Assembly: GCA_001404055.1 (NCBI GenBank)
Contig: CXTY01000035.1
Coordinates: forward strand, 124,001 to 188,000
Source of the DNA: Roseibium album
GTDB lineage: Bacteria > Pseudomonadota > Alphaproteobacteria > Rhizobiales > Stappiaceae
DNA: 64,000 nt
Direction of reading: 5' to 3'
The position numbers and the translations under genes were made by a program. The notes under the pieces are model-generated. The model was given only the letters and a program-made list of their open reading frames with translations, was not told where the DNA came from and did no database searches. Numbering within the stretch: the stretch's first letter is position 1; each line of letters begins with the position of its first letter. Below are positions 13,341-26,904 of the stretch, one piece after another.

Positions 13341-14150
13341 TCATCCGCGTTCAAACATCCCCTTTACCCTCGGCCATTCCGCCCCCTCGTGATGCGCCGC
13401 GATTTCCAGAAACGTCTGCAGAAACTCAAAGCAGCCTTCGTCGTGCGCCAGATGATGCGTTAAAATGCCGACCGGTTCGAAAATCGAATTCCGCCGCCGG
13501 GTCAGCTGCAGGTCGAAGCGCAAGCGCGCGCTTTCCCAACCGATAAAGCGCACCTGTTTTTTCCATTTCAGGATGTCTATATGCGACTGGACCTGGTGAG
13601 TGCGCGGGAAATTGTGCCATGTGAATGTGGACAGGCCGGATAGACCGATGCCCGGAAGGCGCCGGGAAATTTCCGGTGCGATCCGATTCCAGGGCGGCAC
13701 CATGGCCGGGATAAACTTTTCACCGAAGAGTTTCTCAAGCCGCGCCTTGCCGTCAACAAGTTGAGCCATCAATTCATTCGGATCGCGGCGGGTACCGAGC
13801 TCAGCAGCCTTTTCGCCCTTATCCTTGCGCTGAAAGTTCTTGTGCTGCCATCCGTGTTGCAGGATCCAGGCATGGTGTTCGGCTGCGAGCCGGTCCGCGA
13901 GTGCATGGGTTGCGTCTTTAGGGATAACGGCTAGCGCAATGTCGACCTCGTGCTGATTGGCAAGCGAAAGCAATCGGTCGAGCAAATGTGTTGGTTCAAT
14001 TGCATCATCGTCCCGCCACCAGAAACGGACCTTTCGTCCACGCTCGGCGAACCAGTCGAGATGGGTCGTCAACTCGTCTTTGAAGCGTTGCAATTCAGAA
14101 GAAGAAGAGGGTGAAGTCAACAAATCGTTCCGGATTAATGATCTGGGCAA
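13341..14150 (-). CDS. polysaccharide deacetylase-like protein
   Basis: A 269-residue NodB/WalW-like protein. KVRFWWRDDDAIEPTHLL contains the paired Asp of the deacetylase metal site. LQHGWQHKNF supplies the His motif, and FIPAMVPPWNRIAPEI the later loop. VGILTHHLAHDE near the C-terminus is also typical. Probably removes an acyl group from a glycan. Its start overlaps the end of the methyltransferase gene by 16 bases, so it is the last gene of the minus-strand glycan operon. Confidence 0.82.
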   Translation of the reverse strand: MPRSLIRNDLLTSPSSSSELQRFKDELTTHLDWFAERGRKVRFWWRDDDAIEPTHLLDRLLSLANQHEVDIALAVIPKDATHALADRLAAEHHAWILQHGWQHKNFQRKDKGEKAAELGTRRDPNELMAQLVDGKARLEKLFGEKFIPAMVPPWNRIAPEISRRLPGIGLSGLSTFTWHNFPRTHQVQSHIDILKWKKQVRFIGWESARLRFDLQLTRRRNSIFEPVGILTHHLAHDEGCFEFLQTFLEIAAHHEGAEWPRVKGMFERG

Positions 14151-15009: not shown

Positions 15010-16152
15010 TTAACTCAGATCGTCAATAAGAATTTCAGCGCTTTTCTCGGCACCACCAAGTCGTACCTGGTTCTGCTTGCGAGGCAGGGCAAGAGCATCG
15101 TCGACCGCAGCGGCAAGACGTTCTGGTGTCAATCCTGCTTCTGATGTCACGACGGCGCGACCATGAGCCGCCAGAGCTTCGGCACGTTGCGTCTGTTCTG
15201 TCTCGTTTGCCTGCGCGAACGGTACGAATACGGCTGGCACGCCTGCCACCAGAATATCCAGCACCGTGTTGTAGCCTGCCTGACTGACGGAAAGCCTTGC
15301 CCGTTTCAGAAGTTCCGGAAAATCCCGGCGCGCCCGCTCAACGATAATGCCTTCGCCCGCGCTCATCTTGTAAATGGCAAAGGCATCTTCCGAGATGTCG
15401 TGACCAATCAGAATACGCCAGCGGGCATCTTCTGCGCGCCTGGAAAGGGGACGGGCTTCCAGCGCTGCGGACAGCAGGTTTTCAGCAACCGCACCTCCGC
15501 CACAGGAAATGATCACTTCATCGTCGCCGTCGGGCCCCTCGGCTTCCGGACGGTTGCCGCCACCGACATAGCCGGTATAGCGCACCAGATGATCGACCCG
15601 TTCAGCAAAGGGGAAGCTGTCACCGAGCTGAATGAAGTCCGGGTCTGAATGGATGAGAATACGATCATAAAACCTGAGCGCCTGATTGGCCATCCATTCC
15701 TCTTTCCAGAGCTCTTTCTTACGCACAAGAATATCGCGGATGGATGTGGCGACTAGCGGCGGTTTTGATTTCGCCTTCGCGGTCTCCAGAAGTGGTGTCA
15801 GCTCAAAATCGAGCTGCCGTCTGCCAAAGGGATAGGTTTCGGTCAGGAGCAGATCGTAATCTTCTGCGTGAAGTGCTTGAATCGATGCATTAACGCGAGC
15901 TGATTTCCAAGCATCGTCAATATCTTCATTGTCTAAAGTAACGAGTTTCTTGAAGTTTGCATCGGGGCTTTTGCATGCCGGTAGTGCGATAATTTTGAGC
16001 GGTCCGGTGTCCAATGTCGGCGGTATCTTGTTGCCACTGGCAAGCGTCACTTCCACACCCCGTGCAGCGAGGGCTTTGCCTATGCTGGCGGCCCGGACAA
16101 CGTGGCCCGTACCCAGAAGATGTTGCACATGAATGAAGGCCTTGACGCTCAA
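15010..16152 (-). CDS. MurG-like glycosyltransferase (GT28-type fold)
   Basis: A 380-residue GT-B protein. The opening MSVKAFIHVQHLLGTGHVVRAASIGKAL and the C-terminal nucleotide-sugar site VIISCGGGAVAENLL and SVSQAGYNTVLDILVAGVPAVFVPFAQANETEQTQRAEAL are MurG-like. The genuine MurG would sit in the cell-wall cluster, so this is a paralogue for another glycan. Its ATG overlaps the stop of the GT4 gene upstream by four bases. Confidence 0.83.
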   Translation of the reverse strand: MSVKAFIHVQHLLGTGHVVRAASIGKALAARGVEVTLASGNKIPPTLDTGPLKIIALPACKSPDANFKKLVTLDNEDIDDAWKSARVNASIQALHAEDYDLLLTETYPFGRRQLDFELTPLLETAKAKSKPPLVATSIRDILVRKKELWKEEWMANQALRFYDRILIHSDPDFIQLGDSFPFAERVDHLVRYTGYVGGGNRPEAEGPDGDDEVIISCGGGAVAENLLSAALEARPLSRRAEDARWRILIGHDISEDAFAIYKMSAGEGIIVERARRDFPELLKRARLSVSQAGYNTVLDILVAGVPAVFVPFAQANETEQTQRAEALAAHGRAVVTSEAGLTPERLAAAVDDALALPRKQNQVRLGGAEKSAEILIDDLS

Positions 16153-17276
16153 GATATGTGCGCCTCTTGTCGGTGTTTGTGGTTCTGGATGGCTTTGTGA
16201 ACAAATGCATCCAGCCGCTCAGCACCTGCTACCAAAGTGTGTTTCTGTTCGATGTGCCTTGCAGCTGCCTGGCCCAGTTTAACGGCTAATGAAGGTTCCA
16301 TAAGTACCCGTCGCAGATTGGCGGCAAAAGCTTCCGGGTCGCCCTCGGGCGACAAAAACCCCGACACGCCATCGCGGACAATGTCCGGTACGCCAAATGT
16401 ATCACCAGCAACAACACCAGTTCCAGTCGCCTGAGCTTCCAAAAAAACCAGACCGAAGGCCTCGCGAATGGCCGGCCAGACCAGAAGGTTATGGCTGGCG
16501 TATTGAGCAGGGAGTTGATCAGATGGCAAAGCGCCAAGCCAGTTGATCTTCTCTTGCGGAAAAAGCTGAAGGATATGATCCCTGTTTGGACCGTCACCTA
16601 CGATCGTCAAGGTCCAAGGAAGATCAATAACCAGGGCGAGCGCCCGAGCCAAAACTTCATAGGAACTTGTCTTGTCGCCTTCCCGCATCATGCCGACGGC
16701 TAGCAGTTTGAGAGGCGGTGAAGCTGGTGATTTGCGTGACCTTGCAGCCTGCTGAAAGGGAGAGGCATCCAAAAACGGTAGCAACACGTCTAGTCTTTCA
16801 TCGGAAACAACAGCCTGCAGGCATGCCACATCAGCATTATGAATAGCCGCGACCGCATCAGCTCTTTCAAGTGCCTGGTCAGCGGCGGCAAAACCAAAAG
16901 CCCATTTGCCTTTCTGGCGCTTTGGAGCGCGGCTGGCTTCAACAATGGCGTAGGGCAGGTCAAATTGATCGGCAAGGTACGACCCGATCCAGTCGGGTGC
17001 CTTGTGATAAAGGTGATATGTCAGAAACAAATCTGGTCGGTAGCCAGACTGCACCCAGTGGTCAGCCACTTTTGCTGCCTCGTTGAGCGCGAGGCTCTTG
17101 ACCTCTGCCTGGATCTGATCGCTGCCTTCTTTGCGCCAGGACTTGAATGTGCTTGCAATCTGCACGTCGTGTCCGGCTCTCTCCAGAGCTTTCACAATCA
17201 GGCGTCCCATGGTCCTATCACCGGACGGGACCGGGTGATCCAGAGGTTTCATGGGTGCGGTGAAGGCGATTTTCAT
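16149..17276 (-). CDS. glycosyltransferase family 4
   Basis: About 375 residues. ATG 17276 (MKIAFTAPMKPLDHPVPSGDRTMGRL) is chosen because the frame upstream runs into the preceding gene and is not family-like. The GT4 donor site is LVWPAIREAFGLVFLEAQATGTGVVAGDTFGVPDIVRDGVSGF, with the E-x7-E arrangement of retaining GT-B enzymes. Coupled to the MurG-like gene by a four-base overlap. Confidence 0.9.
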   Translation of the reverse strand: MKIAFTAPMKPLDHPVPSGDRTMGRLIVKALERAGHDVQIASTFKSWRKEGSDQIQAEVKSLALNEAAKVADHWVQSGYRPDLFLTYHLYHKAPDWIGSYLADQFDLPYAIVEASRAPKRQKGKWAFGFAAADQALERADAVAAIHNADVACLQAVVSDERLDVLLPFLDASPFQQAARSRKSPASPPLKLLAVGMMREGDKTSSYEVLARALALVIDLPWTLTIVGDGPNRDHILQLFPQEKINWLGALPSDQLPAQYASHNLLVWPAIREAFGLVFLEAQATGTGVVAGDTFGVPDIVRDGVSGFLSPEGDPEAFAANLRRVLMEPSLAVKLGQAAARHIEQKHTLVAGAERLDAFVHKAIQNHKHRQEAHIS

Positions 17277-17295
17277 AGTCGGTCCTGGGGTGCTT

Positions 17296-18519
17296 TCAAA
17301 GCACCTTACGAAATTTTTCCGCAAGGCGGTCAAGGCCCGGGTTGGATGAAAATGCACTGCGGACGTGTTTTGAAGCAGCCATACCCAATTCAAAGCGTCG
17401 CTTCGGATCCCTGATAAGGCCGACCAGCGCTTCAGATAATTGGTCAGGTGCGCCAGGATCAACTAGAACGCCCGTTTCTGCGTCCTGGATCAACTCCGGT
17501 ATTGCCGAAACCTTGGTGGAGAGGCAACAAAGCCCCATCGACTGGGCTTCCATCAGGACATTGGGCAAGCCATCCCGGTCACCGGTTTTGGCGAGTTTGG
17601 ACGGCAATACGAACAAGTCGGCTTGCTGGCAAGTCGAAATGACTTTTTCTCTTGGCTGGGCTCCGCACCATGTGATCCTGTCGGACAGGCCAAGTCTGGC
17701 AGCTTCTTTTTTCAGAACGTCTGAAAGCTCGCCACCACCGATGTGGGTAAAATGCCAGTTGAGGTCTTTCGGGATATCTGCGAGCGCTGCAAGCAGGTCA
17801 TCATAACCTTTTTTCTCAACAGCTCTGCCAACCGAAACCAGTCGGACGGGCTCACCGCTGCCATCACGCGGTGAAGCCGATGATTCAGGCTCAGGAAAGC
17901 CGGAGAAATCGAGTCCGTGATAGAGCAGTTCAACCTTTTCAGGATTGTCAGCCAACCCCTTCAGATGTTTGACATTCACACCAGTGCAGGTCACGCCCCA
18001 TGCCGCATCATCGATCTTTGTGCGCAGGTCCCATTCCGGGCTTGTCCAGATGTCCTTCGCATGCGCGGAGAACGACCACTTCCGTCCGGAAAGATGCGCG
18101 GCGTAGCGGGCTGCAGAGCACGGCGTATGGAGATAATGAGTGTAAATCCAGGTGATGTCCTCTGGCAGTTCATGGGCAAAGACACAGCCTTGCGACCAGC
18201 GACGTTGTCGGTCTGCATTGGGCTGTTTTGCGAAATCCGCATCAAACAATGCTTTCGCAGCTTCATAGGTCGGTTGTTTTTCCGCCCAGCGTTTTGCCCG
18301 CGCGACCCGGGCCGGATCATCTTTCACGTATTCCGGCAGATACATGACATCGGCAGAAATCTGCCGGTGCAATTCATGGATAAACGGATCATAGGGTTTG
18401 CGCAGCGCAACGATCAGAATCTCTATGCCGCGTTGTTCCAGCCCGAGAATTTCCTGGGCAATAAACGTTTCGGACAGGCGTGGGTAGCCTTTGACCACAA
18501 CGGCAATTCTGGACATCAA
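17296..18519 (-). CDS. glycosyltransferase family 4, colanic-acid-type
   Basis: A 407-residue retaining GT-B enzyme. RIAVVVKGYPRLSETFIAQEILGLEQRG is the start typical of WcaL/ExpE7-like exopolysaccharide transferases. RLVSVGRAVEKKGYDDLLAA begins the donor domain, and DGLPNVLMEAQSMGLCCLSTKVSAIPELIQDAETGVLVDPG gives the catalytic E-x7-E region. It lies 19 bases from the next GT4. It should add a sugar to a surface or lipid-linked glycan. Confidence 0.9.
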   Translation of the reverse strand: MMSRIAVVVKGYPRLSETFIAQEILGLEQRGIEILIVALRKPYDPFIHELHRQISADVMYLPEYVKDDPARVARAKRWAEKQPTYEAAKALFDADFAKQPNADRQRRWSQGCVFAHELPEDITWIYTHYLHTPCSAARYAAHLSGRKWSFSAHAKDIWTSPEWDLRTKIDDAAWGVTCTGVNVKHLKGLADNPEKVELLYHGLDFSGFPEPESSASPRDGSGEPVRLVSVGRAVEKKGYDDLLAALADIPKDLNWHFTHIGGGELSDVLKKEAARLGLSDRITWCGAQPREKVISTCQQADLFVLPSKLAKTGDRDGLPNVLMEAQSMGLCCLSTKVSAIPELIQDAETGVLVDPGAPDQLSEALVGLIRDPKRRFELGMAASKHVRSAFSSNPGLDRLAEKFRKVL

Positions 18520-18568: not shown

Positions 18569-19786
18569 TCAGAAATTGACTAGTTTGCGGTCGTCTTCAG
18601 AAGCCTGATCTTCAAATATTTCGCCAACGCGCGTGGAAATTACATCCAGACCACCCAGAAGGTTGTCTACGCCGGCAGAGGAAGGCGCGGCCATTTGCGG
18701 CAGCTCGGACAGGGCGATCGCCATCAGATCCGGGTCCGGGTAGCGATCGATTGGGAGAACCTTCAGGAGACCACTCTTTTCAGCCCGTTCGGCGCGTATG
18801 GCCTGCTCACGCCGTGGGATTACACGGGGAACCATCAATGTTGGCTTGTCGAATGACAGGATCTCGCAGAACGTGTTGTAGCCTCCCATGCCGACAATGG
18901 CCGTGGCGCTTGCCAGGTAAGGTTCAATCTGCGGTGTAAAGCGGATGATCTCGACGTCGCGCAGGTGTTCCGCGCGCTCGCTGAACTGTGCCGCCGCTGC
19001 TGCTGGCATGAACGGCCCGAGGACGATCAGTGCCGGAAACAACGGTCGCTGCCGTGCCTCATAGGCACGCATGACCCAGTCGACCATCTCAACGCCATCG
19101 CCGCCACCGCCAGGTGTGACGAGGATGTAGGGTTCTTCACCAAAAGGCGTGGGGGGTGGTTGATCCTGTACAGAGCCCGGCAACTCACGTCTGAGGTAGC
19201 CTGTGTAACGCATTTTTTTAGTGACGCCTTCTGGAAGGGCTATACCCTCCAACGGGTCACAAATGTCTTCCGGTCCATACACCCAGATTTCGTCGTAAAG
19301 GTCTTTCAAAGCAGGGTAGACGTTCTTGCGATCCCACTCTTCACTCAGCACTGCCGGATCATCCATCACATCACGGAGCCCAAGCACGAGGCGGGTGTCG
19401 CGTTCTTTCAGGGCTTCCAGCGTGCCGAGCACCTCTCCGCGGAGACCGAGCGGTTCCTTGTCGACAATAAAGATGTCCGGATCGAAAACCTTGGCGGTAT
19501 GTTCAATAATGGACGAGCGTATCGCGAGCGTATGGTCGATATTGATGTGCAGAGACAGCGGTGTGTATTCACCATTACGAAGCTTGATGACACCGGGAAT
19601 GCGGACAAAATCCACGCGTGCCCGGAATTCGAAACTGCCGATAATCGGAGAGCCAGACAGAATAAGGACGGACAGGGTGTCAAAGTCGCCGACGAGAGAT
19701 TGCGCGATAGCGCGGCATCGTCTGAGATGGCCCAACCCGAAGGAGTCATGGCTGTAAATAAGGATCTTCGGCGTTTTGGAACTCAT
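18569..19786 (-). CDS. MurG-like glycosyltransferase family protein
   Basis: A 405-residue protein, first gene of the minus-strand operon. ILIYSHDSFGLGHLRRCRAIAQSL opens a GT-B fold. ILVTPGGGGDGVEMVDWVMRAYEA and ATAIVGMGGYNTFCEILSFDKPTLMVPRVIPRREQAIRAERAEKSGL form the donor-binding half. It is clearly a paralogue of the 15010-16152 product in fold but not in close sequence. Substrates unknown. It is divergent from the ABC exporter at 20018, sharing the ~230-base control region. Confidence 0.82.
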   Translation of the reverse strand: MSSKTPKILIYSHDSFGLGHLRRCRAIAQSLVGDFDTLSVLILSGSPIIGSFEFRARVDFVRIPGVIKLRNGEYTPLSLHINIDHTLAIRSSIIEHTAKVFDPDIFIVDKEPLGLRGEVLGTLEALKERDTRLVLGLRDVMDDPAVLSEEWDRKNVYPALKDLYDEIWVYGPEDICDPLEGIALPEGVTKKMRYTGYLRRELPGSVQDQPPPTPFGEEPYILVTPGGGGDGVEMVDWVMRAYEARQRPLFPALIVLGPFMPAAAAAQFSERAEHLRDVEIIRFTPQIEPYLASATAIVGMGGYNTFCEILSFDKPTLMVPRVIPRREQAIRAERAEKSGLLKVLPIDRYPDPDLMAIALSELPQMAAPSSAGVDNLLGGLDVISTRVGEIFEDQASEDDRKLVNF

Positions 19787-20017
19787 ACTGCCCCTGAATT
19801 TGTAATGCTGCCCCGTGGGCCTTATGTCTCAAGTTAACGGCTTTTGTCACGCCCTGATATGTCTTGACACGTGACTTTCTACAATGAAGGGTCAGCAAAC
19901 CCTTTTAAAGTGGTTGTGGCAAATGCTAATCCTTGGTAGCGCATCGATATTGGACCGCTAGTATACCAAATATGATCTGCATGCATATAATTGATCCATG
20001 TCTGTTCGGATGAAATA

Positions 20018-22600
20018 ATGGAAAAAAGCCTTTTTCGCTTTATTTGGAAATACAGCTCCCGACAGCAGATCTACATACTTCTGGTCACCGTACTTTCCTA
20101 CCCAGTTGTCTATTTCCTGCTTGAACTGCCAAAACTCATTGTCAATGACGCTGTTCAGGGCGATAATTTTCCAAAGAGCGTGTTTGGGTTTGACTTCGAC
20201 CAAATTCCCTATCTGGTGTTGCTCTGCTTTACTTTTCTCGGCCTTGTCGTGGTTTCAAACGGGCTGAAATTCTATCTGAATGTTTACAAAGGTCGATTGG
20301 GCGAAAGGATGCTTCGGCGTCTGCGCTTTGAGCTTTTCCAGCGCGTCCTTCGTTTCCGGCTTCCTCATTTCAGAAAAGTCAGTTCGGGTGAAATTATCCC
20401 GATGATCACTTCCGAAGTTGAGGATGTTGGCGGATTTATTGGGGAAGCCTTTGCACTGCCTGCATACCAGGGTGGCATGCTGATTGTGCAACTTGGCTTT
20501 ATTTTCATGCAGGATCCGCTGCTCGGACTGGCCGCTGTCGCGTCCTACCCTGTTCAGGGGTATGTCATCCCGATGCTGCAAAAAAGGGTCATCATTCTTT
20601 CCCGGAAACGGGTCAAGAATGTACGCCTGATTGCCGACAAGGTCGGTGAAAGCATTACCGGTGTTGCTGAAATCCATGCCAACGATGCCGCTGCATTCCA
20701 TTCAGCAGACATTTCCGATCGCCTTTATGAGAACTTCAAGATCCGATACGAGATCTTTAACCGGAAGTTCCTCATCAAGTTCCTGAATAACTTCATGAAC
20801 CAGCTGACGCCGTTCTTCTTTTACCTGATCGGCGGGTATCTGGTGATCGAAGGAAACCTGAGTATTGGTGCCCTTCTTGCGGTTATTGCGGCCTACAAGG
20901 ATCTGGCTGGCCCGTGGAAACTGTTGTTGTCCTTCTACCAGATGACGGCCGATGTCAGCGTCAAGTATCAGACAGTTGTCGAGAACTTTGACCCGAAAGA
21001 CATTTATGACACTGACCGTCTGACTTCTGATGAAAATGTAAAGCTCACCGGCGACGTCAAGTTCGACAATGTGAGTTTCTCTGGTGGTGCGGCCGGTCAG
21101 GAGGTCATGGATATATCCCTGAAAGTGCCCAGCGGCGAGGCCTGCGCCATTGTCGGGCCTGATGGATCCGGTCGATCTGAGGTGTTGCAGCTTGCTGCGG
21201 GCCTTGTATCTGCGTCCACCGGAAAGGTCTTTATCGGCGAACATGACCTGGACAAATTGACCGATTCCACACTTGGCCGCGAAATCGCCTATGTCGGTGG
21301 AGCGGTGCACGTGTGGTCCGGAACCATTCGGGACAATCTTTATTACGGCCTGCGGCACAGACCTCTCGTTCTTCCGAAACGCGAAGGTGAGGATCTGAAA
21401 AACTACAAGCGGCGTGTCAGCGAAGCCAATGAGACCCGCAATCCGGTTTATGATCTGGCAGCAGACTGGGACGATCTGGAAGCTGCGGGTGTGAGCAGCG
21501 TTACCGAACTTGACGAAAAAGCGCTGGAGCTTCTAGAGGCAGTCCAACTCAGCAAGGACATATACCGCCTCGGACTTCAGTCGCGGTTCGATCCTTCCAT
21601 GAATGATACGTTTGCAGAAAAAATCCTGAGTGTCCGGCAAAACCTGGCTGAGCGGATCGTGAATGAACCTGCCCTCGGCGGTCTCGTCGAGCTCTGGCAT
21701 CAGGATCGTTTCAATGCCAGCGCCAGCCTCGCGGATAACTTGTTCTTTGCGGTCCCCTCCGATCCGGAAATCACGATGGATCAGGTTCCGGACCTGGAGG
21801 AAGTCAAGACCTTCCTGTCTGAAACCGGGTTTGACCAGAAGCTCCAACAGATCGGGTTGAAAATCGCCGAAACCATGTTGGAACTGTTTTCGAACGTTTC
21901 CGGAGACAGCGGTCTTTTGGGGTCGTATTCATTCATCAATCAGGATGAGCTACCGGAATTCGAACGGATCGTTCGTGTTGCCAAGTCCGGACAACAACGG
22001 CCGGGCCTGAGCGATGCGGACCGGTCCAGGCTTACCGGGCTTGCCTTCAAACTGGTGCCGGCGCGTCACCGTCTCGGCGTGATGACCGATGAACTCAAGG
22101 AAGAAATCATCGGCGCGCGCAAACGGTTCCTTGAAGGCGTTGTCAAGAACAGCGGCAGCTTTGTTGCCTTCGATCCGGATGTCTATCTGCCACCGCTTAC
22201 GATTGAGGATAATCTGCTCTTCGGGCGCGCAAGGGTTGACCGCAGGGATGCGAGACGCAGGATCGATGACGTCATTCGCGCGATCGTAGAAGAAACAGGC
22301 CTAAGGCGTCCGATTATCTATGCCGGCTTCGGCTATCATGTAGGTGTGTCCGGCTCAAGACTATCGGCTGGGCAGCGTCGACGCATAGCACTTGTCCGAG
22401 GTCTTCTGAAAAACGCAAAAATCACCATATTGGATGATATAGCGACAGGAATGACTGAAGACGACAAAGCATTGCGTGATGGTCTGCGAAATATACTTGC
22501 AGGAAAGACATTCCTGTTCGGAACGTTCAACGCCGACATTGCTGCTGAATTTGACCAACGCATTGTTTTGGATCAGGGACGGATATCAGATAAAGGGTAA
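20018..22600 (+). CDS. ABC exporter fusion (TMD-NBD) with long NBD insertion and altered catalytic motifs
   Basis: About 860 residues from ATG 20018 (an in-frame TTG at 19991 is less likely). Residues ~1-330 are a six-helix exporter domain (YILLVTVLSYPVVYFLLELP; GGYLVIEGNLSIGALLAVIAAYKDL). The ATPase domain starts near 350. Walker A reads GPDGSGRS (380-387), with Arg386 in place of the invariant Lys. The Q-loop Gln is Gly (AYVGGAVHVWSG). A ~300-residue insertion precedes the signature LSAGQRRR (782-789). Walker B is ITILDD, with Asp807 in place of the catalytic Glu, and no H-loop His is seen (FLFGTFNAD). The post-Q-loop word xxxDNLxxG appears three times (436, 570, 728). It is followed by cyclic-nucleotide-binding and MBL genes, and divergent glycosyltransferase genes suggest a glycan or lipid-linked substrate (inference). 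Confidence 0.85.
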   Translation: MEKSLFRFIWKYSSRQQIYILLVTVLSYPVVYFLLELPKLIVNDAVQGDNFPKSVFGFDFDQIPYLVLLCFTFLGLVVVSNGLKFYLNVYKGRLGERMLRRLRFELFQRVLRFRLPHFRKVSSGEIIPMITSEVEDVGGFIGEAFALPAYQGGMLIVQLGFIFMQDPLLGLAAVASYPVQGYVIPMLQKRVIILSRKRVKNVRLIADKVGESITGVAEIHANDAAAFHSADISDRLYENFKIRYEIFNRKFLIKFLNNFMNQLTPFFFYLIGGYLVIEGNLSIGALLAVIAAYKDLAGPWKLLLSFYQMTADVSVKYQTVVENFDPKDIYDTDRLTSDENVKLTGDVKFDNVSFSGGAAGQEVMDISLKVPSGEACAIVGPDGSGRSEVLQLAAGLVSASTGKVFIGEHDLDKLTDSTLGREIAYVGGAVHVWSGTIRDNLYYGLRHRPLVLPKREGEDLKNYKRRVSEANETRNPVYDLAADWDDLEAAGVSSVTELDEKALELLEAVQLSKDIYRLGLQSRFDPSMNDTFAEKILSVRQNLAERIVNEPALGGLVELWHQDRFNASASLADNLFFAVPSDPEITMDQVPDLEEVKTFLSETGFDQKLQQIGLKIAETMLELFSNVSGDSGLLGSYSFINQDELPEFERIVRVAKSGQQRPGLSDADRSRLTGLAFKLVPARHRLGVMTDELKEEIIGARKRFLEGVVKNSGSFVAFDPDVYLPPLTIEDNLLFGRARVDRRDARRRIDDVIRAIVEETGLRRPIIYAGFGYHVGVSGSRLSAGQRRRIALVRGLLKNAKITILDDIATGMTEDDKALRDGLRNILAGKTFLFGTFNADIAAEFDQRIVLDQGRISDKG

Positions 22601-22691
22601 AACGGTTTTGGGTTTGGGAGAACGACCGTTTGCGGACACGACAAATGAACAAAGACAAACAAACTAGAAAAATAATGTGCGGGAGGGAATT

Positions 22692-23150
22692 ATGACGCTG
22701 GAAACCGAGGTCGAAGCCCTCCGCAAAGTGCCGCTGTTTCATGGCATCGATGAAACAAAGCTGCGGTTGCTGGCATTCATCAGCGACAGAACGGAATACC
22801 CGGCTGGCGAACGCCTGTGTTCGCAAGGCGAAGAAGGAGATTGCGCCTTTATCATTCTTTCCGGCGCTGCAGACGTCCTTGTTGATACACCTGACGGCCA
22901 AAAGAAGGTCGCAGAAACTTCCGAAAATTCCATTGTTGGTGAAATCGCCATTCTTTGTGATGTGCCTAGAACCGCGACACTGGTTGCTGTGAACAACATG
23001 GATGTTTTAACCGTATCAAAAGATGATTTTTTGAAACTCTTGAAAGAATTTCCGGATATCTCACTTGAAGTGATGCGGACATTGGCTTTGAGGCTTGAAC
23101 GAACAACCCGTGATCTGGCTGCGGCGCGCCAGGGCGCAGCCGGCAGCTAG
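22692..23150 (+). CDS. cyclic nucleotide-binding domain protein
   Basis: A 152-residue stand-alone CNB domain. VPLFHGIDETKLRLLAFISDRTEYPAGERLCSQGEEGD is the N-terminal beta-roll. The phosphate-binding cassette GEIAILCDVPRTATL (residues 83-97) keeps Glu84 and Arg93, as needed for cAMP or cGMP binding. No DNA-binding domain follows, so it is not a CRP-type regulator. ATG 22692 follows GGGAGGGA; an upstream in-frame GTG at 22677 is less likely. It lies between the ABC exporter and an MBL-fold gene and probably regulates one of them by protein contact (inference). Confidence 0.88.
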   Translation: MTLETEVEALRKVPLFHGIDETKLRLLAFISDRTEYPAGERLCSQGEEGDCAFIILSGAADVLVDTPDGQKKVAETSENSIVGEIAILCDVPRTATLVAVNNMDVLTVSKDDFLKLLKEFPDISLEVMRTLALRLERTTRDLAAARQGAAGS

Positions 23151-23160
23151 GGAGTAACTC

Positions 23161-23985
23161 GTGGCAGAAGAATTTTCGCTTCGTTGCTGGGGCGCCAGGG
23201 GATCCACGCCGACACCGGGCGCAAGTACACTGCGATACGGTGGCGAGACCTCGTGTTTCGAAATCCGTGCCGGAGATGCATTGGTGCTCGTGGATTGTGG
23301 GTCAGGTGCACGAAACCTCGGCATGGAACTCTGCAAGCGCGGAGCGCGCTCTTTCGATCTTCTGTTTACCCACACGCATCTGGATCACATTTGCGGGTTG
23401 CCATTTTTCAAACCTGCATACGACCCGAGTTTTGAGGTTACTGCCTGGGCTGGGCATTTTCAGGATGACACTGATCTGGTCGAAATCGTCAGCCGCATCA
23501 TGTCTCCGCCGATCTTTCCGGTCGCTGCCAAAACCCTGAAAGCAGTTGAATTCAAGACCTTTACTGCAGGCAAGCAAATTCCCCGCAGTGATGATCTGGT
23601 TATCAAGACGACGCGTCTCAATCATCCTGGTGGCGCTTGCGGTTTTCGATTTGAATATCAGGGCAAGTCAATTTGCATCATCACGGATCATGAACACGGT
23701 GATCCCGAGGTCGATGCAGCCTTGCCGGAATTCGTACGGGACACGGATATCATGATCTATGATGCCATGTTCACGGACGACGAATACGAGACTTACAAGG
23801 GGTGGGGACATTCCACCTGGCAAAAGGCCGTGCAACTTGCCAAAGAAGGAAGTGTCAAAACCCCGGTCCTGTTTCATCACGACCCGCGCCGCTCGGATGA
23901 TGACCTGGACGAAATCGGGTTGGCTGCACAAAAAGCTTATCCTGGGACACTTGTGGCCAGTGAAGGCATGCTTCTGAAACCTTGA
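23161..23985 (+). CDS. metallo-beta-lactamase-fold hydrolase
   Basis: A 274-residue MBL-fold protein starting at a GTG ten bases after the CNB stop, with GGAGTAA upstream. It has LVDCGSGARNLG, the dinuclear-metal motif FTHTHLDHICGLPFF, TRLNHPGGACGFRF, IITDHEHGD, IYDAMFTDDEY, and the final ligand in VLFHHDPRRSDD. The sequence type is related to the RNase Z/PhnP-like phosphodiesterase branch. A role in cyclic nucleotide or cyclic phosphodiester cleavage would fit its neighbours, but this is only inference. Confidence 0.88.
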   Translation: MAEEFSLRCWGARGSTPTPGASTLRYGGETSCFEIRAGDALVLVDCGSGARNLGMELCKRGARSFDLLFTHTHLDHICGLPFFKPAYDPSFEVTAWAGHFQDDTDLVEIVSRIMSPPIFPVAAKTLKAVEFKTFTAGKQIPRSDDLVIKTTRLNHPGGACGFRFEYQGKSICIITDHEHGDPEVDAALPEFVRDTDIMIYDAMFTDDEYETYKGWGHSTWQKAVQLAKEGSVKTPVLFHHDPRRSDDDLDEIGLAAQKAYPGTLVASEGMLLKP

Positions 23986-24292: not shown

Positions 24293-25444
24293 GTGGTCAT
24301 TTCCGCAGAGAAACAAATTGGGCTCTCCAGCCTCGCTGTCGCCGCAGCGATGGATCCTGCGCAGTGGCAGCCGTTTCTGGACGAAATGGGGCAGATTCTA
24401 GGAACACGCGTGTGTACTCAGCTGATTGGCTATGACCAGCTTACCAAAGCTGCGCCGTTGGCTTATTCTTCGGGATACGACCCTGATATATTACGCCTTT
24501 ATGAAACCCACTATGCAGACAGGAATCCTTTCGCAGCAAATTTTCAAAACTGCGGAATTGGCGAATCAATTTCGGCCCATGAGCTTTGTGCACCTGAGAA
24601 ATTGAAGAAGACGGATTTTTACGCGGACCTTCTAAAGCCCATGGAAGATATTTGCGGCGGTGGCGGTTCGATGATTGCGTTGGATGCCAAACGGATGTTT
24701 CTGATCGGTGGAAACATAAGGGCAAAAGATCGCGAAACTTACGAAGATGACTGGCTCCGGCTTTGTGTTGGGCTCGCGCCTGTTATTTGTCAATCTCTTG
24801 AGATCAACCGCGCCATCTCAGGACTGTCCTTTGAAAAATGGGCAGCTGAACAGCACCTGCTTGGAACCGGGACGGCTATCTTCGTAGTCGATCCAACGAC
24901 GATGATCCACTACACCTGCAAGGAAGCCGAGAAACTTCTCGGGCTGGGGGGCGTAGTCAAAACCGGTATTGATCGCCGCCTCAGGTTCCCGTCCGAGGAA
25001 GCGCAAAACAGGTTTCTCTCCCTCTCCCGCGCGCAGGCCAGGGGGCAGATTAATGTTTTGAACAGCTGGCGCCTGACAGACACGTCAGGGCAGGGTTGGA
25101 CCTGTCGGGTAATGGGGATGCGTCTCGGCGATTTGGACCGTTCACCTTTTCAGGCATTTATAACCAAGTCCATTTCTGCTGTCCTGCTGGCAATCAAACC
25201 GGATGTTGCAGCGTCCTCATTCCAGGCAGATCTTCAAAATGCTCTTGGATTGAGCGGGGCTGAAACGACTTCAGCGCTGATGCTTTCTGACGGGCAGTCG
25301 CTTGCCGAGATTGCAACAACACGGCGCGTGAGCATTTATACAGTTCGAAATCAGATCAAATCCGCCATGGCCAAAACAGGTTGTCGGCGACAAAGCGAAT
25401 TGGTTCGGAAAATTGAACAGCTGCGGCTGCAAGGCGGCGGGTAA
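24293..25444 (+). CDS. LuxR-family regulator with N-terminal sensor region
   Basis: A 383-residue protein starting at GTG 24293 behind CAGGGGG. The last ~60 residues form a LuxR-type helix-turn-helix: GLSGAETTSALMLSDGQSLAEIATTRRVSIYTVRNQIKSAMAKTGCRRQSELV. The N-terminal ~300 residues look like a PAS/autoinducer-like sensor (AIFVVDPTTMIHYTCKEAEKLLG resembles a PAS segment). The ligand is unknown. It is followed by a cyclase gene after ~100 bases, which it may control. Confidence 0.85.
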   Translation: MVISAEKQIGLSSLAVAAAMDPAQWQPFLDEMGQILGTRVCTQLIGYDQLTKAAPLAYSSGYDPDILRLYETHYADRNPFAANFQNCGIGESISAHELCAPEKLKKTDFYADLLKPMEDICGGGGSMIALDAKRMFLIGGNIRAKDRETYEDDWLRLCVGLAPVICQSLEINRAISGLSFEKWAAEQHLLGTGTAIFVVDPTTMIHYTCKEAEKLLGLGGVVKTGIDRRLRFPSEEAQNRFLSLSRAQARGQINVLNSWRLTDTSGQGWTCRVMGMRLGDLDRSPFQAFITKSISAVLLAIKPDVAASSFQADLQNALGLSGAETTSALMLSDGQSLAEIATTRRVSIYTVRNQIKSAMAKTGCRRQSELVRKIEQLRLQGGG

Positions 25445-25548
25445 CACTCTTAGATTTACTGATCACAGCAAGTCACATTCCCTTGCAGCCCGTTGCGCAT
25501 TCCATTCCAACGGTGGAAACTTGGATCTCCTATGGAAGCTGGATCAAC

Positions 25549-26904
25549 ATGAGCTCATTTCAGGATAAATTACGCTACATCTTCCGCGGCGGTCCGCCAG
25601 TATCTGGTATCCCTGATCGCGTGCGCGCCGAAATCCGCTCCAGGGAAGCTTCGTCCGAACGACTGATCAGTTGGGTGCAGTTGGGGTTGGTTTTGTTTTT
25701 TTCCACGCTCTACGCCATTGCACCGCGTGCTGAGGGCTCAGCGGGGTTCAACTTCGTACCCATCGCTCTTGGTGCGTATTTTCTCTTTACGGTGCTAAGG
25801 TTGGTCCTTTCCTACCGGTTCGAGCTGCCACAATGGTACCTGTTGATTTCGATTGGCGTGGATATGGCGCTTCTGGTCGGACTGATCTTTTCGTTTCATA
25901 TCCAGTATGATCAGCACCCGTCGTTCTACCTTAAAACGCCAACACTGATGTATGTGTTCATCTTCATAGGATTGAGGGCGCTTCGGTTTGATCCGCGTTT
26001 TGTCCTGACCACCGGGCTAGTTGCAATGGTCGGCTGGCTGGGCCTTGTGTTTTATGCCGCTTTTGCCGACATGGACGGCATGCGCGTTACCCGGAATTAC
26101 GTGGAGTATCTGACTGCTAACTCAATCTTGATTGGCGCAGAACTGGACAAGACGATGGTAATTCTTGCCGTCACCATAATTCTGTCAGTGGCGCTATACC
26201 GAGGCCGTTCGTTGTTGTTTGAAGCGACACGCGACCATGCAGCCGCCATGGATCTGCGCCGCTTTTTCACGCCCGAAGTTGCTGCGTCCATCACTAATGC
26301 AGATTCCGAACTTCAGGCAGGCGAGGGAAGTTTGCGGGACGCCGCGATCCTTTTTCTGGATATCCGTTCATTTACGTCAACTTCAGCGAAGTTGCCACCT
26401 GAAACCGTCCTGACAATCCTGGCCGAATACCAGAACCTCGCGGTCGAGGTCATCAATCAGGAAGGGGGACGGGTCGACAAATTCCTTGGGGACGGGATCC
26501 TGGCGACCTTTGGTGCGGTCCATCCTTCCAAGTCATATGCCGCTGATGCGCTCAGGGCGGCATCCCGTTTGGTTGAAAGCGTGGAGGCTGGACAGGCGCG
26601 TTTTCAAACCGCAGGTTGGACAGGTAAACTCGAAGTTGGCGTGGCAGTCGCTGCCGGTCCCGTGACAGTTGGGGTGATTGGCTCCAAGAACCGACTGGAA
26701 TTCACGGTCATCGGAGATGCCGTCAACAGGGCGGCGAAGCTGGAAGATGCCAACAAGGTGCAAAAAACCAGAGCACTGACGGACGATGTCACGTGGGAAC
26801 TTGCACAGGCTCAAGGTTATCACTCCATACACGCAGAAATGCGGCCGGGCTCTGAAGTGGCAGGCGTAAACAGATGTCTCGATCTGGTGGTTCTTGCCCA
26901 ATAG
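25549..26904 (+). CDS. membrane-anchored class III adenylate/guanylate cyclase
   Basis: About 451 residues from ATG 25549; the frame extends upstream to a TTG at 25483. Residues ~38-225 carry about six membrane segments. The catalytic domain starts near 255: AAILFLDIRSFTS with metal-binding Asp271, VDKFLGDGILATFG with Lys311 and Asp315, and RLEFTVIGDAVNRAAKLE with Thr386. Lys plus Thr in the purine-specifying positions matches class IIIb cyclases, which usually make cAMP. A CNB protein is encoded 2.4 kb upstream on the same strand, a possible receiver for its product (inference). Confidence 0.9.
   Translation: MSSFQDKLRYIFRGGPPVSGIPDRVRAEIRSREASSERLISWVQLGLVLFFSTLYAIAPRAEGSAGFNFVPIALGAYFLFTVLRLVLSYRFELPQWYLLISIGVDMALLVGLIFSFHIQYDQHPSFYLKTPTLMYVFIFIGLRALRFDPRFVLTTGLVAMVGWLGLVFYAAFADMDGMRVTRNYVEYLTANSILIGAELDKTMVILAVTIILSVALYRGRSLLFEATRDHAAAMDLRRFFTPEVAASITNADSELQAGEGSLRDAAILFLDIRSFTSTSAKLPPETVLTILAEYQNLAVEVINQEGGRVDKFLGDGILATFGAVHPSKSYAADALRAASRLVESVEAGQARFQTAGWTGKLEVGVAVAAGPVTVGVIGSKNRLEFTVIGDAVNRAAKLEDANKVQKTRALTDDVTWELAQAQGYHSIHAEMRPGSEVAGVNRCLDLVVLAQ

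Follow-up and report, generated by a model that had tools for sequence, protein, structure and literature searches.

A family of ABC-exporter-fold proteins with a degenerate ATP site encoded beside a predicted cyclic-nucleotide-binding protein

What might an ABC exporter do once its ATP site has lost its canonical residues? The question is raised by a gene of Roseibium album that lies in the window analysed here, a stretch of 64,000 nucleotides (assembly GCA_001404055.1, contig CXTY01000035.1, positions 124,001 to 188,000 of the forward strand). The open reading frame starts with an ATG at position 20018 of the window, on the plus strand, ends with a stop at 22600 and encodes 860 amino acids, in which Pfam detected ABC_membrane (4e-18) and ABC_tran (7e-18), both above cut-off; the curated NCBIfam cut-offs for MsbA (174.8 vs 602 bits), PglK (60.7 vs 1000) and ChvA (97.2 vs 585.4) were missed. 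The AlphaFold2 model of the protein (pLDDT 83.8, pTM 0.77) had TM287 of TM287/288 (3qf4_A) as its top whole-chain structural match, with a Z of 25.3 and 4.5 Å over 416 residues spanning residues 1-860, and it matched the nucleotide-binding domain (NBD) of ComA with a Z of 24.9 and 2.5 Å over 221 residues. The protein is thus modelled as a type IV ABC exporter, with the six-helix membrane domain and the ABC ATPase fold of MsbA, TM287/288, Sav1866 and PglK, from which its family differs by a degenerate ATP site, 267 extra residues and a cyclic-nucleotide-binding (CNB) partner.

The membrane domain (residues 1-322, positions 20018-20983) is followed by the first half of the ATPase core (residues 341-426, 21038-21295), whose Walker A, GPDGSGRS, is found at residues 380-387 (21155-21178) and has Arg386 at the place of the canonical lysine. 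A profile alignment to ordinary exporters put Gly428 at the canonical Q-loop position, within a degenerate Q-loop whose segment (21290-21346) also includes the first of three DNL words (see below). The signature LSAGQ (residues 782-786) belongs to the true helical subdomain (22154-22408), and the second half of the core (22409-22597) carries the Walker B and catalytic position in ILDD (residues 804-807, 22427-22438), with an aspartate at the Walker B position and Asp807 instead of the catalytic glutamate, and the H-loop position in GTFN (22520-22531), occupied by Phe837. These four substitutions and the presence of the signature agree with the original prediction, which had concluded from them that no canonical ATP site would be left.

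Comparison of 110 family members (the window protein and 109 loci, from two overlapping collections) showed that none retained all six canonical residues of the ATP site, and the result was the same (0/90) after removal of rows that were at least 90% identical. The median was two residues, with none kept in 5 members, one in 22, two in 51, three in 27 and four in 5. In the control, made of the 30 best of 56 ordinary-exporter matches in 96 genomes, K, S/T, Q, D, E and H were each present in 30/30. Normal Lys, Glu or His in homologues had been named beforehand as a sign of local sequence error; these residues do recur singly (44, 60 and 38 of 110, respectively), but never within a full set, and glutamine was found at position 428 in 18/110. 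Judged by these alignments, the ATP site is degenerate throughout the family and this is not peculiar to the window protein. Walker A Gly385 and signature Gln786 were invariant (110/110 each), and ATP binding may still be possible because these two residues and the ATPase fold persist. The family is alphaproteobacterial, with a few relatives also in metagenome bins titled gammaproteobacterial.

The pattern of conservation is inverted relative to that of ordinary exporters. Mean pairwise identity was 60% in the membrane domain, the best conserved part of the protein, and 34-37% in the two halves of the ATPase core, the least conserved regions, whereas the ordinary exporter control gave 50% for the membrane domain and 62% for the NBD. 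Three glutamates of the membrane domain, E96, E133 and E135, were conserved in 17-18 of 18 rows; a glutamate ladder with proton coupling is a hallmark of the SLiPT proteins SbmA/BacA, discussed below. The helical/signature part, with 47% identity, is better conserved than the ATPase core, which counts against the explanation that we prefer below.

The insertion announced by the original prediction is real, although it measures 267 residues (approximately 446-712, positions 21353-22153) rather than about 300, and the three DNL words said to begin at residues 436, 570 and 728 exist three residues further on, at 439, 573 and 731. Their asparagines (N440, N574 and N732) showed no variation in either of the two family alignments, of 30 and 68 rows, and invariant residues are present within the extra segment as well. 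Comparisons by hhalign matched residues 557-712 (21686-22153), which contain the second word, to residues 713-806, which contain the third, at 97% (E 1e-11) between segments that do not overlap; one control pair reached 98%, a value explained solely by the built-in overlap of its segments. The true helical subdomain matched the ordinary ATPase domain at 99% (E 5e-20), and the region of the first word matched the Q-loop of ordinary exporters at 95% over 26 columns and the second and third copies over 23 columns only (81% and 69%), while residues 446-556 had no significant match to the ordinary ATPase domain (0.1%). A full internal triplication is supported in part only since residues 446-556 are unmatched; the first word belongs to the true Q-loop, with new sequence behind it, the second to the copy and the third to the true helical subdomain. 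The proposed duplication of the segment behind the Q-loop is therefore upheld for the second and third words and not for the first, and a helical subdomain copied inside the extra segment is supported by these profile matches.

Residues 446-724 were modelled alone with a pLDDT of 91.4 and contained no Pfam or NCBIfam family. Searches with this model returned nothing at E ≤ 0.001 with Foldseek and no Z ≥ 5 with VIA-align; five of the nine best VIA-align rows were ABC ATPase domains, aligned to model residues 79-272 with Z values of 2.8-4.2 that are too weak alone. A profile search of the PDB gave weak matches only, to CydC (E 0.4) and to ribosomal L14e (E 0.3).

The next gene on the plus strand (22677-23150) encodes a predicted CNB protein of 157 amino acids (Pfam cNMP_binding, 4e-21). 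Profile searches of all frames found a CNB relative at 81/81 family loci, directly behind the ABC frame at 73, fused to it at one and unclear or elsewhere at seven. Further fusions were found in L033 and L153, in L156, L157 and L158 (all three from one genome), and in L159 and L162, so that the CNB domain is fused to the ABC protein in at least eight cases. The GE ... PR motif, which we take to be the phosphate-binding cassette of such domains, was largely intact (Gly 80/81, Glu 79/81, Pro 80/81 and Arg 81/81), and this motif suggests that cyclic nucleotides may be bound. Two more genes of the plus strand encode a metallo-beta-lactamase-fold (MBL) hydrolase (23161-23985; Pfam Lactamase_B_2), present at 32/81 loci, and a class III adenylate/guanylate cyclase (25483-26904; Pfam Guanylate_cyc, 1e-12), found nearby at 31/81 loci.

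On the minus strand lies a cluster of four glycosyltransferase genes: GTa (18569-19786), a divergent MJ1255/GT28-like enzyme found at 76/81 loci, GTb (17296-18519) and GTc (16149-17462), two GT4 enzymes at 74/81 and 71/81 loci whose counts may cross-hit, and GTd (15010-16152), a MurG-like GT28 enzyme at 76/81. A weak match to a polysaccharide deacetylase (13341-14150, minus strand; Pfam E 0.0085, 16.5 bits against a cut-off of 23.1) was present at 63/81. All these neighbour counts come from profile searches of all frames at the 81 loci, which span at most 20 kb each and in some cases far less. The ABC gene was present in 58 of 190 genomes, GTa in 58 and both in 55 (Fisher p 3e-40), including genomes in which the two genes lie on separate contigs.

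The same genes were found in Sinorhizobium meliloti, where pSymB 822000-862000, in a record without locus tags, holds GTc, the deacetylase-like gene, MBL, cyclase, GTa, GTb, GTd, ABC and CNB. Because the order in strain R14 is ABC, CNB, FkbM, LacI and SM_b21272 is the LacI transcription factor, the ABC protein would, by counting genes, be SMb21269 and the CNB protein SMb21270, and the whole set probably lies within smb21252-smb21271. Passages of PMC10128002 call nine genes of this interval necessary for the phazolicin-protecting polysaccharide (PPP), a surface polysaccharide proposed as a shield against a peptide antibiotic in legume symbionts, and report that the phazolicin MIC fell from 1.47 to 0.18 µg/mL in two glycosyltransferase mutants, smb21252 and smb21265. 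These passages treat the polysaccharide and are silent on the ABC gene, its protein and the ATP site. A cAMP/Clr transcriptome places its cAMP-linked polysaccharide cluster at nodP2-smb21248, adjoining but outside smb21252-smb21271 (PMC5498481), which weighs against our preferred explanation.

Eleven relatives consist of the membrane domain alone, without an ATPase domain; L201 (G139), whose frame runs off the contig, was excluded from this count. They fall into one clade with the family (support 99/98; bootstrap not settled), within which they make up two clades that may have arisen once or twice, inside or beside the family, and they have gaps at the expected coupling regions. One of them is a gene of Sulfitobacter indolifex (L152, 9773-11077). 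Where annotated or scanned, their genes are surrounded by copper genes or pirin and not by a glycosyltransferase cluster of the window type; the neighbour of the G300 gene had no Pfam match. Since these relatives occur in other contexts, the membrane domain can apparently work without an adjacent NBD, which is not proof for the window protein. Passages on the SLiPT proteins SbmA/BacA describe ABC exporters that became gradient-driven carriers by loss of NBDs and coupling helices (PMC13316013). The family would resemble them by an ABC-exporter-type membrane domain that acts without ATP hydrolysis, and the membrane-only relatives also by lack of the NBD and by the gaps at the coupling regions; the window protein differs in keeping an inactive-looking NBD (ABC_tran), and both it and the scanned membrane-only relatives match Pfam ABC_membrane, with no SbmA_BacA match listed. 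Among the matches listed in open-licence full-text literature, we found no description of the family's ATP site or of the membrane-only relatives.

Taken together, the CNB partner, the glycosyltransferase cluster and the ATPase-less relatives favour a non-hydrolytic reading under cyclic-nucleotide control. The suggestion of a very slow, regulated or non-hydrolytic transporter had pointed in the right direction but overlooked these three elements. We propose that the family has given up ATP hydrolysis while its membrane domain keeps a working function, and that the ATPase domain, to which the copied helical subdomain has been added, would persist as a module for docking and gating that no longer catalyses. 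The CNB protein, encoded next door or fused at the C-terminus, would dock on this module and switch the membrane part, so that cAMP or a related nucleotide would take over the controlling role of ATP. The membrane part would move or hand over a surface-polysaccharide intermediate made by the neighbouring glycosyltransferases (that of PPP in S. meliloti), and the driving force would be a gradient or downstream assembly, as in SbmA/BacA, rather than ATP. We infer the lack of hydrolysis, the homodimer, nucleotide binding, docking and gating, and the direction and substrate; the explanation as a whole, in which a membrane protein of ABC descent takes part in surface-polysaccharide assembly under the control of a cyclic nucleotide and hydrolyses no ATP, seems to us evenly poised between right and wrong.

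A wider version is more doubtful and is offered tentatively. It holds that an ABC-exporter membrane-domain lineage has been freed from ATP, apart from SbmA/BacA, and is caught at several stages: a dead ATPase re-used as a cyclic-nucleotide-gated clutch, a dead ATPase with a diverging membrane domain (G211/G318/G326/G443), and the membrane domain alone (the copper-cluster and short forms). In its main form, the lineage would transport a surface-polysaccharide intermediate independently of ATP and under cyclic-nucleotide gating.

The protein could instead move nothing and serve as a receptor or scaffold: with the CNB protein as its sensor of the cyclic nucleotide, the ABC fold would arrange the glycosyltransferases at the membrane or turn them on and off. 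SUR is the model for such a non-transporting ABC protein. Catalytic decay beside a ligand-binding partner that looks intact would fit this role, as would the invariant residues of the extra segment; a pore or carrier fits better because conservation peaks in the membrane domain, which is also kept alone outside the glycosyltransferase cluster, and we regard the scaffold as unlikely. Somewhat less likely still is an unusual but working homodimeric ATPase, in which Arg, Asp and other substitutes permit hydrolysis at a low rate, or the cycle runs on ATP binding alone, under regulation by the CNB protein. The fold is intact in the model, with the good matches to TM287/288 and ComA, Gly385 and Gln786 are invariant, and Lys or Arg occupies the Walker A lysine position in 108/110 members. 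However, the Mg-coordinating S/T was lost in 83, the Walker B Asp in 72, the Q-loop Gln in 92 and the His in 72 of 110, different members lose different sets of residues, and the core halves are where conservation is lowest.

Slightly further down the scale of probability, we place a heterodimer in which the window protein supplies the degenerate half and a gene at another place in the genome the canonical one. Exporters in which one of the sites is degenerate are frequent (PMC7756269). TAP, TM287/288 and MsRv1273c/72c have likewise lost the catalytic Glu and His; TM287 is the best whole-chain match, and the genome of R. album itself holds several exporters with canonical motifs. In those systems, however, the partner restores one good site, whereas the window family loses more motifs, its Q-loop, Walker A and Mg ligand having decayed together, and no other full ABC exporter was found at any of the 81 loci (none longer than 20 kb, some considerably shorter).

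Of six Roseibium-group orthologues, five gave a whole-gene dN/dS of 0.033-0.053, with dS near saturation, and for the sixth the ratio was undefined; these values indicate that the gene is under strong purifying selection. No internal stop was found in the 64 matches listed in one genome search, and 79/80 of a second set were open, L043 holding one stop. A sequence error or a decaying pseudogene, which the joint alteration of several catalytic residues could have suggested, is thus hardly credible and was rejected on the orthologues, since the decay recurs across the family.

Returning to the ATP-independent protein controlled by a cyclic nucleotide, public records name many family members 'ABC transporter ATP-binding protein' or 'ABC transporter transmembrane domain-containing protein', labels that suggest ATP-driven export, whereas the family data indicate that the membrane domain and the cyclic-nucleotide cassette are maintained and the ATP site is not. 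The family's range of forms could be used to study how an ATP-driven exporter loses its ATPase, a question lately examined through SbmA/BacA (PMC13316013). If the proposal is true, a membrane protein involved in making surface polysaccharides would be a direct target of cyclic-nucleotide signalling in Alphaproteobacteria, legume symbionts among them.

The window protein (20018-22600, + strand, 860 residues) carries an ABC_membrane match at residues 54-290 and a split ABC_tran match (Pfam). Its AlphaFold2 model, built from a 68-row alignment, had a pLDDT of 83.8 and a pTM of 0.77; type IV exporters aligned along its length (3qf4_A: Z 25.3, 4.5 A over 416 residues) and its ATPase domain (NBD) aligned with ComA (3vx4_A: Z 24.9, 2.5 A over 221). 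The altered ATPase residues beside an intact LSAGQ signature, on which the original prediction rested, were borne out: Walker A reads GPDGSGRS, and Gly428, Asp807 and Phe837 occupy the Q-loop, catalytic and H-loop positions. The closest named relatives among the matches listed were Labrenzia/Roseibium proteins (85-90% identity). The window protein stops (22575-22600) about 20 residues short of most relatives (860 versus mostly 870-895 residues, alignment A1).

A search of 190 genomes from the class detected the ABC gene in 58 (E <= 1e-60; identity 32-59% across matched pieces), one scan yielding at least 80 named loci, and a phylum-wide profile search matched the family in 26 of 299 genomes, some matches being partial. 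Counts in 110 sequences (the window and 109 loci, from two overlapping collections) showed Lys in 44 and Arg in 64 at the Walker A position, Ser/Thr in 27 and Asp/Glu in 64 at the next, Asp in 38 and Asn in 50 at Walker B, and Glu in 60, Asp in 31 and Gln in 11 at the catalytic position, while the Q-loop Gln was kept in 18 and the H-loop His in 38. All six residues were kept in 0/110 sequences, the maximum being four. The control was an exporter of ordinary type encoded in the same genome: it had 56 matches in a set of 96 genomes, and in the best 30 orthologues each of the six residues was present in 30/30.

Mean pairwise identity in the family was 60% for the membrane domain, 37% and 34% for the ATPase core's two halves, 47% for the helical/signature part and 41% for the Q-loop and extra segment (33 of 68 rows, those less than 60% identical). 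In the control exporter (11 of 30 rows) the membrane domain averaged 50% and the NBD 62%, with 72% from Walker B onward, so that the conservation pattern of the family is the reverse of an ordinary exporter's. Whole-gene dN/dS was 0.033-0.053 against five of six Roseibium-group orthologues, with the sixth undefined and dS near saturation. The protein is maintained and its ATP site is not; a pseudogene is excluded by the family-wide decay of the site and by these ratios.

Residues 446-724 of the window protein had no match in Pfam or NCBIfam. The three DNL words of the post-Q-loop motif each lie three residues further on than predicted. Profile-profile comparison of non-overlapping pieces matched residues 557-712 to the true helical/signature piece 713-806 (97%, E 1e-11) and, at the corresponding place, to the ordinary ATPase domain (58%, E 1e-4). 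The true piece gave 99% (E 5e-20) with that domain, and residues 419-444, the Q-loop piece, gave 95% with the ordinary Q-loop; a membrane piece, as a control, reached 0.4% at most. Modelled by itself, the extra segment had a pLDDT of 91.4, and ABC proteins made up five of its nine best structural rows (ComA, TmrAB, MsbA, PglK and Rv1819c; Z 2.8-4.2), in ranges that we take to be their Q-loop-to-signature part. We conclude that the segment combines a single clear duplicate of the helical subdomain with a new piece. The proposed internal duplication thus held for one copy; three equal copies were rejected, since residues 446-556 matched the ordinary ATPase domain at 0.1%. A paralogue group (L139, L140, L141 and L142, in genomes G211, G326, G318 and G443) keeps the extra segment, but its ATPase core has decayed further still and its membrane domain is divergent.

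Neighbouring genes were counted at 81 loci (the window and 80 others). A relative of the cyclic-nucleotide-binding partner (CNB) was found in 81/81, immediately downstream of the ABC frame in 73 and fused to it in one (L093); in the other seven its place was obscured by a long open frame or it lay elsewhere (L105). Its cassette has the Glu in 79 and the Arg in all 81. Further ABC-CNB fusions occur at L033 and L153 (Pfam), at L156, L157 and L158 (three genes of one genome), and at L159 and L162. Other neighbours were divergently transcribed glycosyltransferases (71-76 loci), a weak relative of polysaccharide deacetylases (63), a metallo-beta-lactamase-fold (MBL) hydrolase (32) and a cyclase (31); these are minimum counts, given the short length of some contigs. 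A second full ABC exporter was found at 0/81 loci. In the window, a 383-residue ORF (24293-25444) separates the MBL gene from the cyclase; it lacks a Pfam match, looks LuxR-like by eye at its C-terminus and has relatives at 9/81 loci.

The neighbouring glycosyltransferase GTa was present in 58 of the same 190 genomes (E <= 1e-40), 55 of them with the ABC gene (Fisher p 3e-40); three had GTa without the ABC gene (G025, G070, G124) and three the reverse (G044, G071, G169). Linkage alone is insufficient for this co-occurrence, because the two lie on separate contigs in some genomes (e.g. G041, G080, G093, G105, G186).

Sinorhizobium meliloti pSymB holds GTc, the deacetylase-like gene, MBL, cyclase, an ABC importer operon, GTa, GTb, GTd, the ABC protein and CNB. 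Gene order in strain R14 (ABC, CNB, FkbM, LacI), with SM_b21272 described as the LacI regulator in a passage of PMC11387232, would make ABC SMb21269 and CNB SMb21270 by counting. Passages of Travin et al. (PMC10128002) report that nine genes of the smb21252-smb21271 interval are required for a surface polysaccharide, the phazolicin-protecting polysaccharide (PPP), that insertions in this region strongly lowered fitness under phazolicin, that the MIC for smb21252 and smb21265 mutants was 0.18 versus 1.47 ug/mL, and, citing two papers, that cAMP regulates genes potentially involved; the relevant passage of one of these (PMC5498481) names instead an adjoining cluster ending at smb21248. Seven of the nine PPP genes were up-regulated under Myxococcus attack, according to a passage of PMC10315480. 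The pSymB record of S. meliloti 1021 shows the ABC gene in two frames (L149, ~19667-22433), and the gene is intact in the strain of L147. At two rhizobial loci (L148, 256-6226; L150, 5382-11344) an operon for an ABC importer, comprising an ATPase, a substrate-binding protein and two permeases, adjoins the same glycosyltransferases, as does a nucleotide cyclase.

Eleven relatives consist of the membrane domain without an NBD. Three of the four longer ones (L151:12476-13969, - strand; L152:9773-11077, +, Sulfitobacter indolifex; L154:7540-8781, -) lie among copper-resistance genes (azurin-like, copper oxidase, PCuAC), and the fourth is on a 3-kb contig (L161:1-1149, +). Of these four, the S. indolifex (434 residues) and Phaeobacter gallaeciensis (497 residues) genes are amid annotated copper genes, that of G107 adjoins PCuAC and multicopper-oxidase genes, and the 3-kb contig, of G300, had no recognisable copper genes. 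The seven shorter ones (L194-L200; e.g. L194:5862-6866, +) span 336-383 residues stop to stop, three beside a pirin gene. The sole NBD-profile matches at membrane-only loci were at L194 (UvrA), L196 (a truncated frame of the same pattern) and L199 (a 313-residue ATPase frame at the contig end). All 18 rows compared, eleven from these proteins and seven from the family, share Q17, K84, E96, R103, E133, P148, G153, P185, Q188, R203, K250, N258, G272, G273, V276 and P299. The membrane-only proteins have alignment gaps at two places, presumably the coupling regions. They form one clade with the family against six ordinary exporters (99/98; bootstrap unsettled), with a weak backbone inside it.

Less likely rival readings are a scaffold, an unusual ATPase and one half of a heterodimer. 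The decay of the ATP site, the CNB partner, the glycosyltransferase neighbours, the PPP phenotype and the ATPase-less relatives together lead us to favour a hydrolysis-free protein set by cyclic nucleotide. It would form a homodimer on which the CNB partner may dock, and its cycle would proceed without hydrolysis, with a gradient or downstream assembly as putative driving force and a surface-polysaccharide intermediate as candidate substrate; a passage on SbmA/BacA (PMC13316013) offers a precedent that such a change is possible. The favoured reading is thus of an ABC-derived membrane protein, no longer dependent on ATP hydrolysis and controlled through its CNB partner, that would have a role in surface-polysaccharide production.
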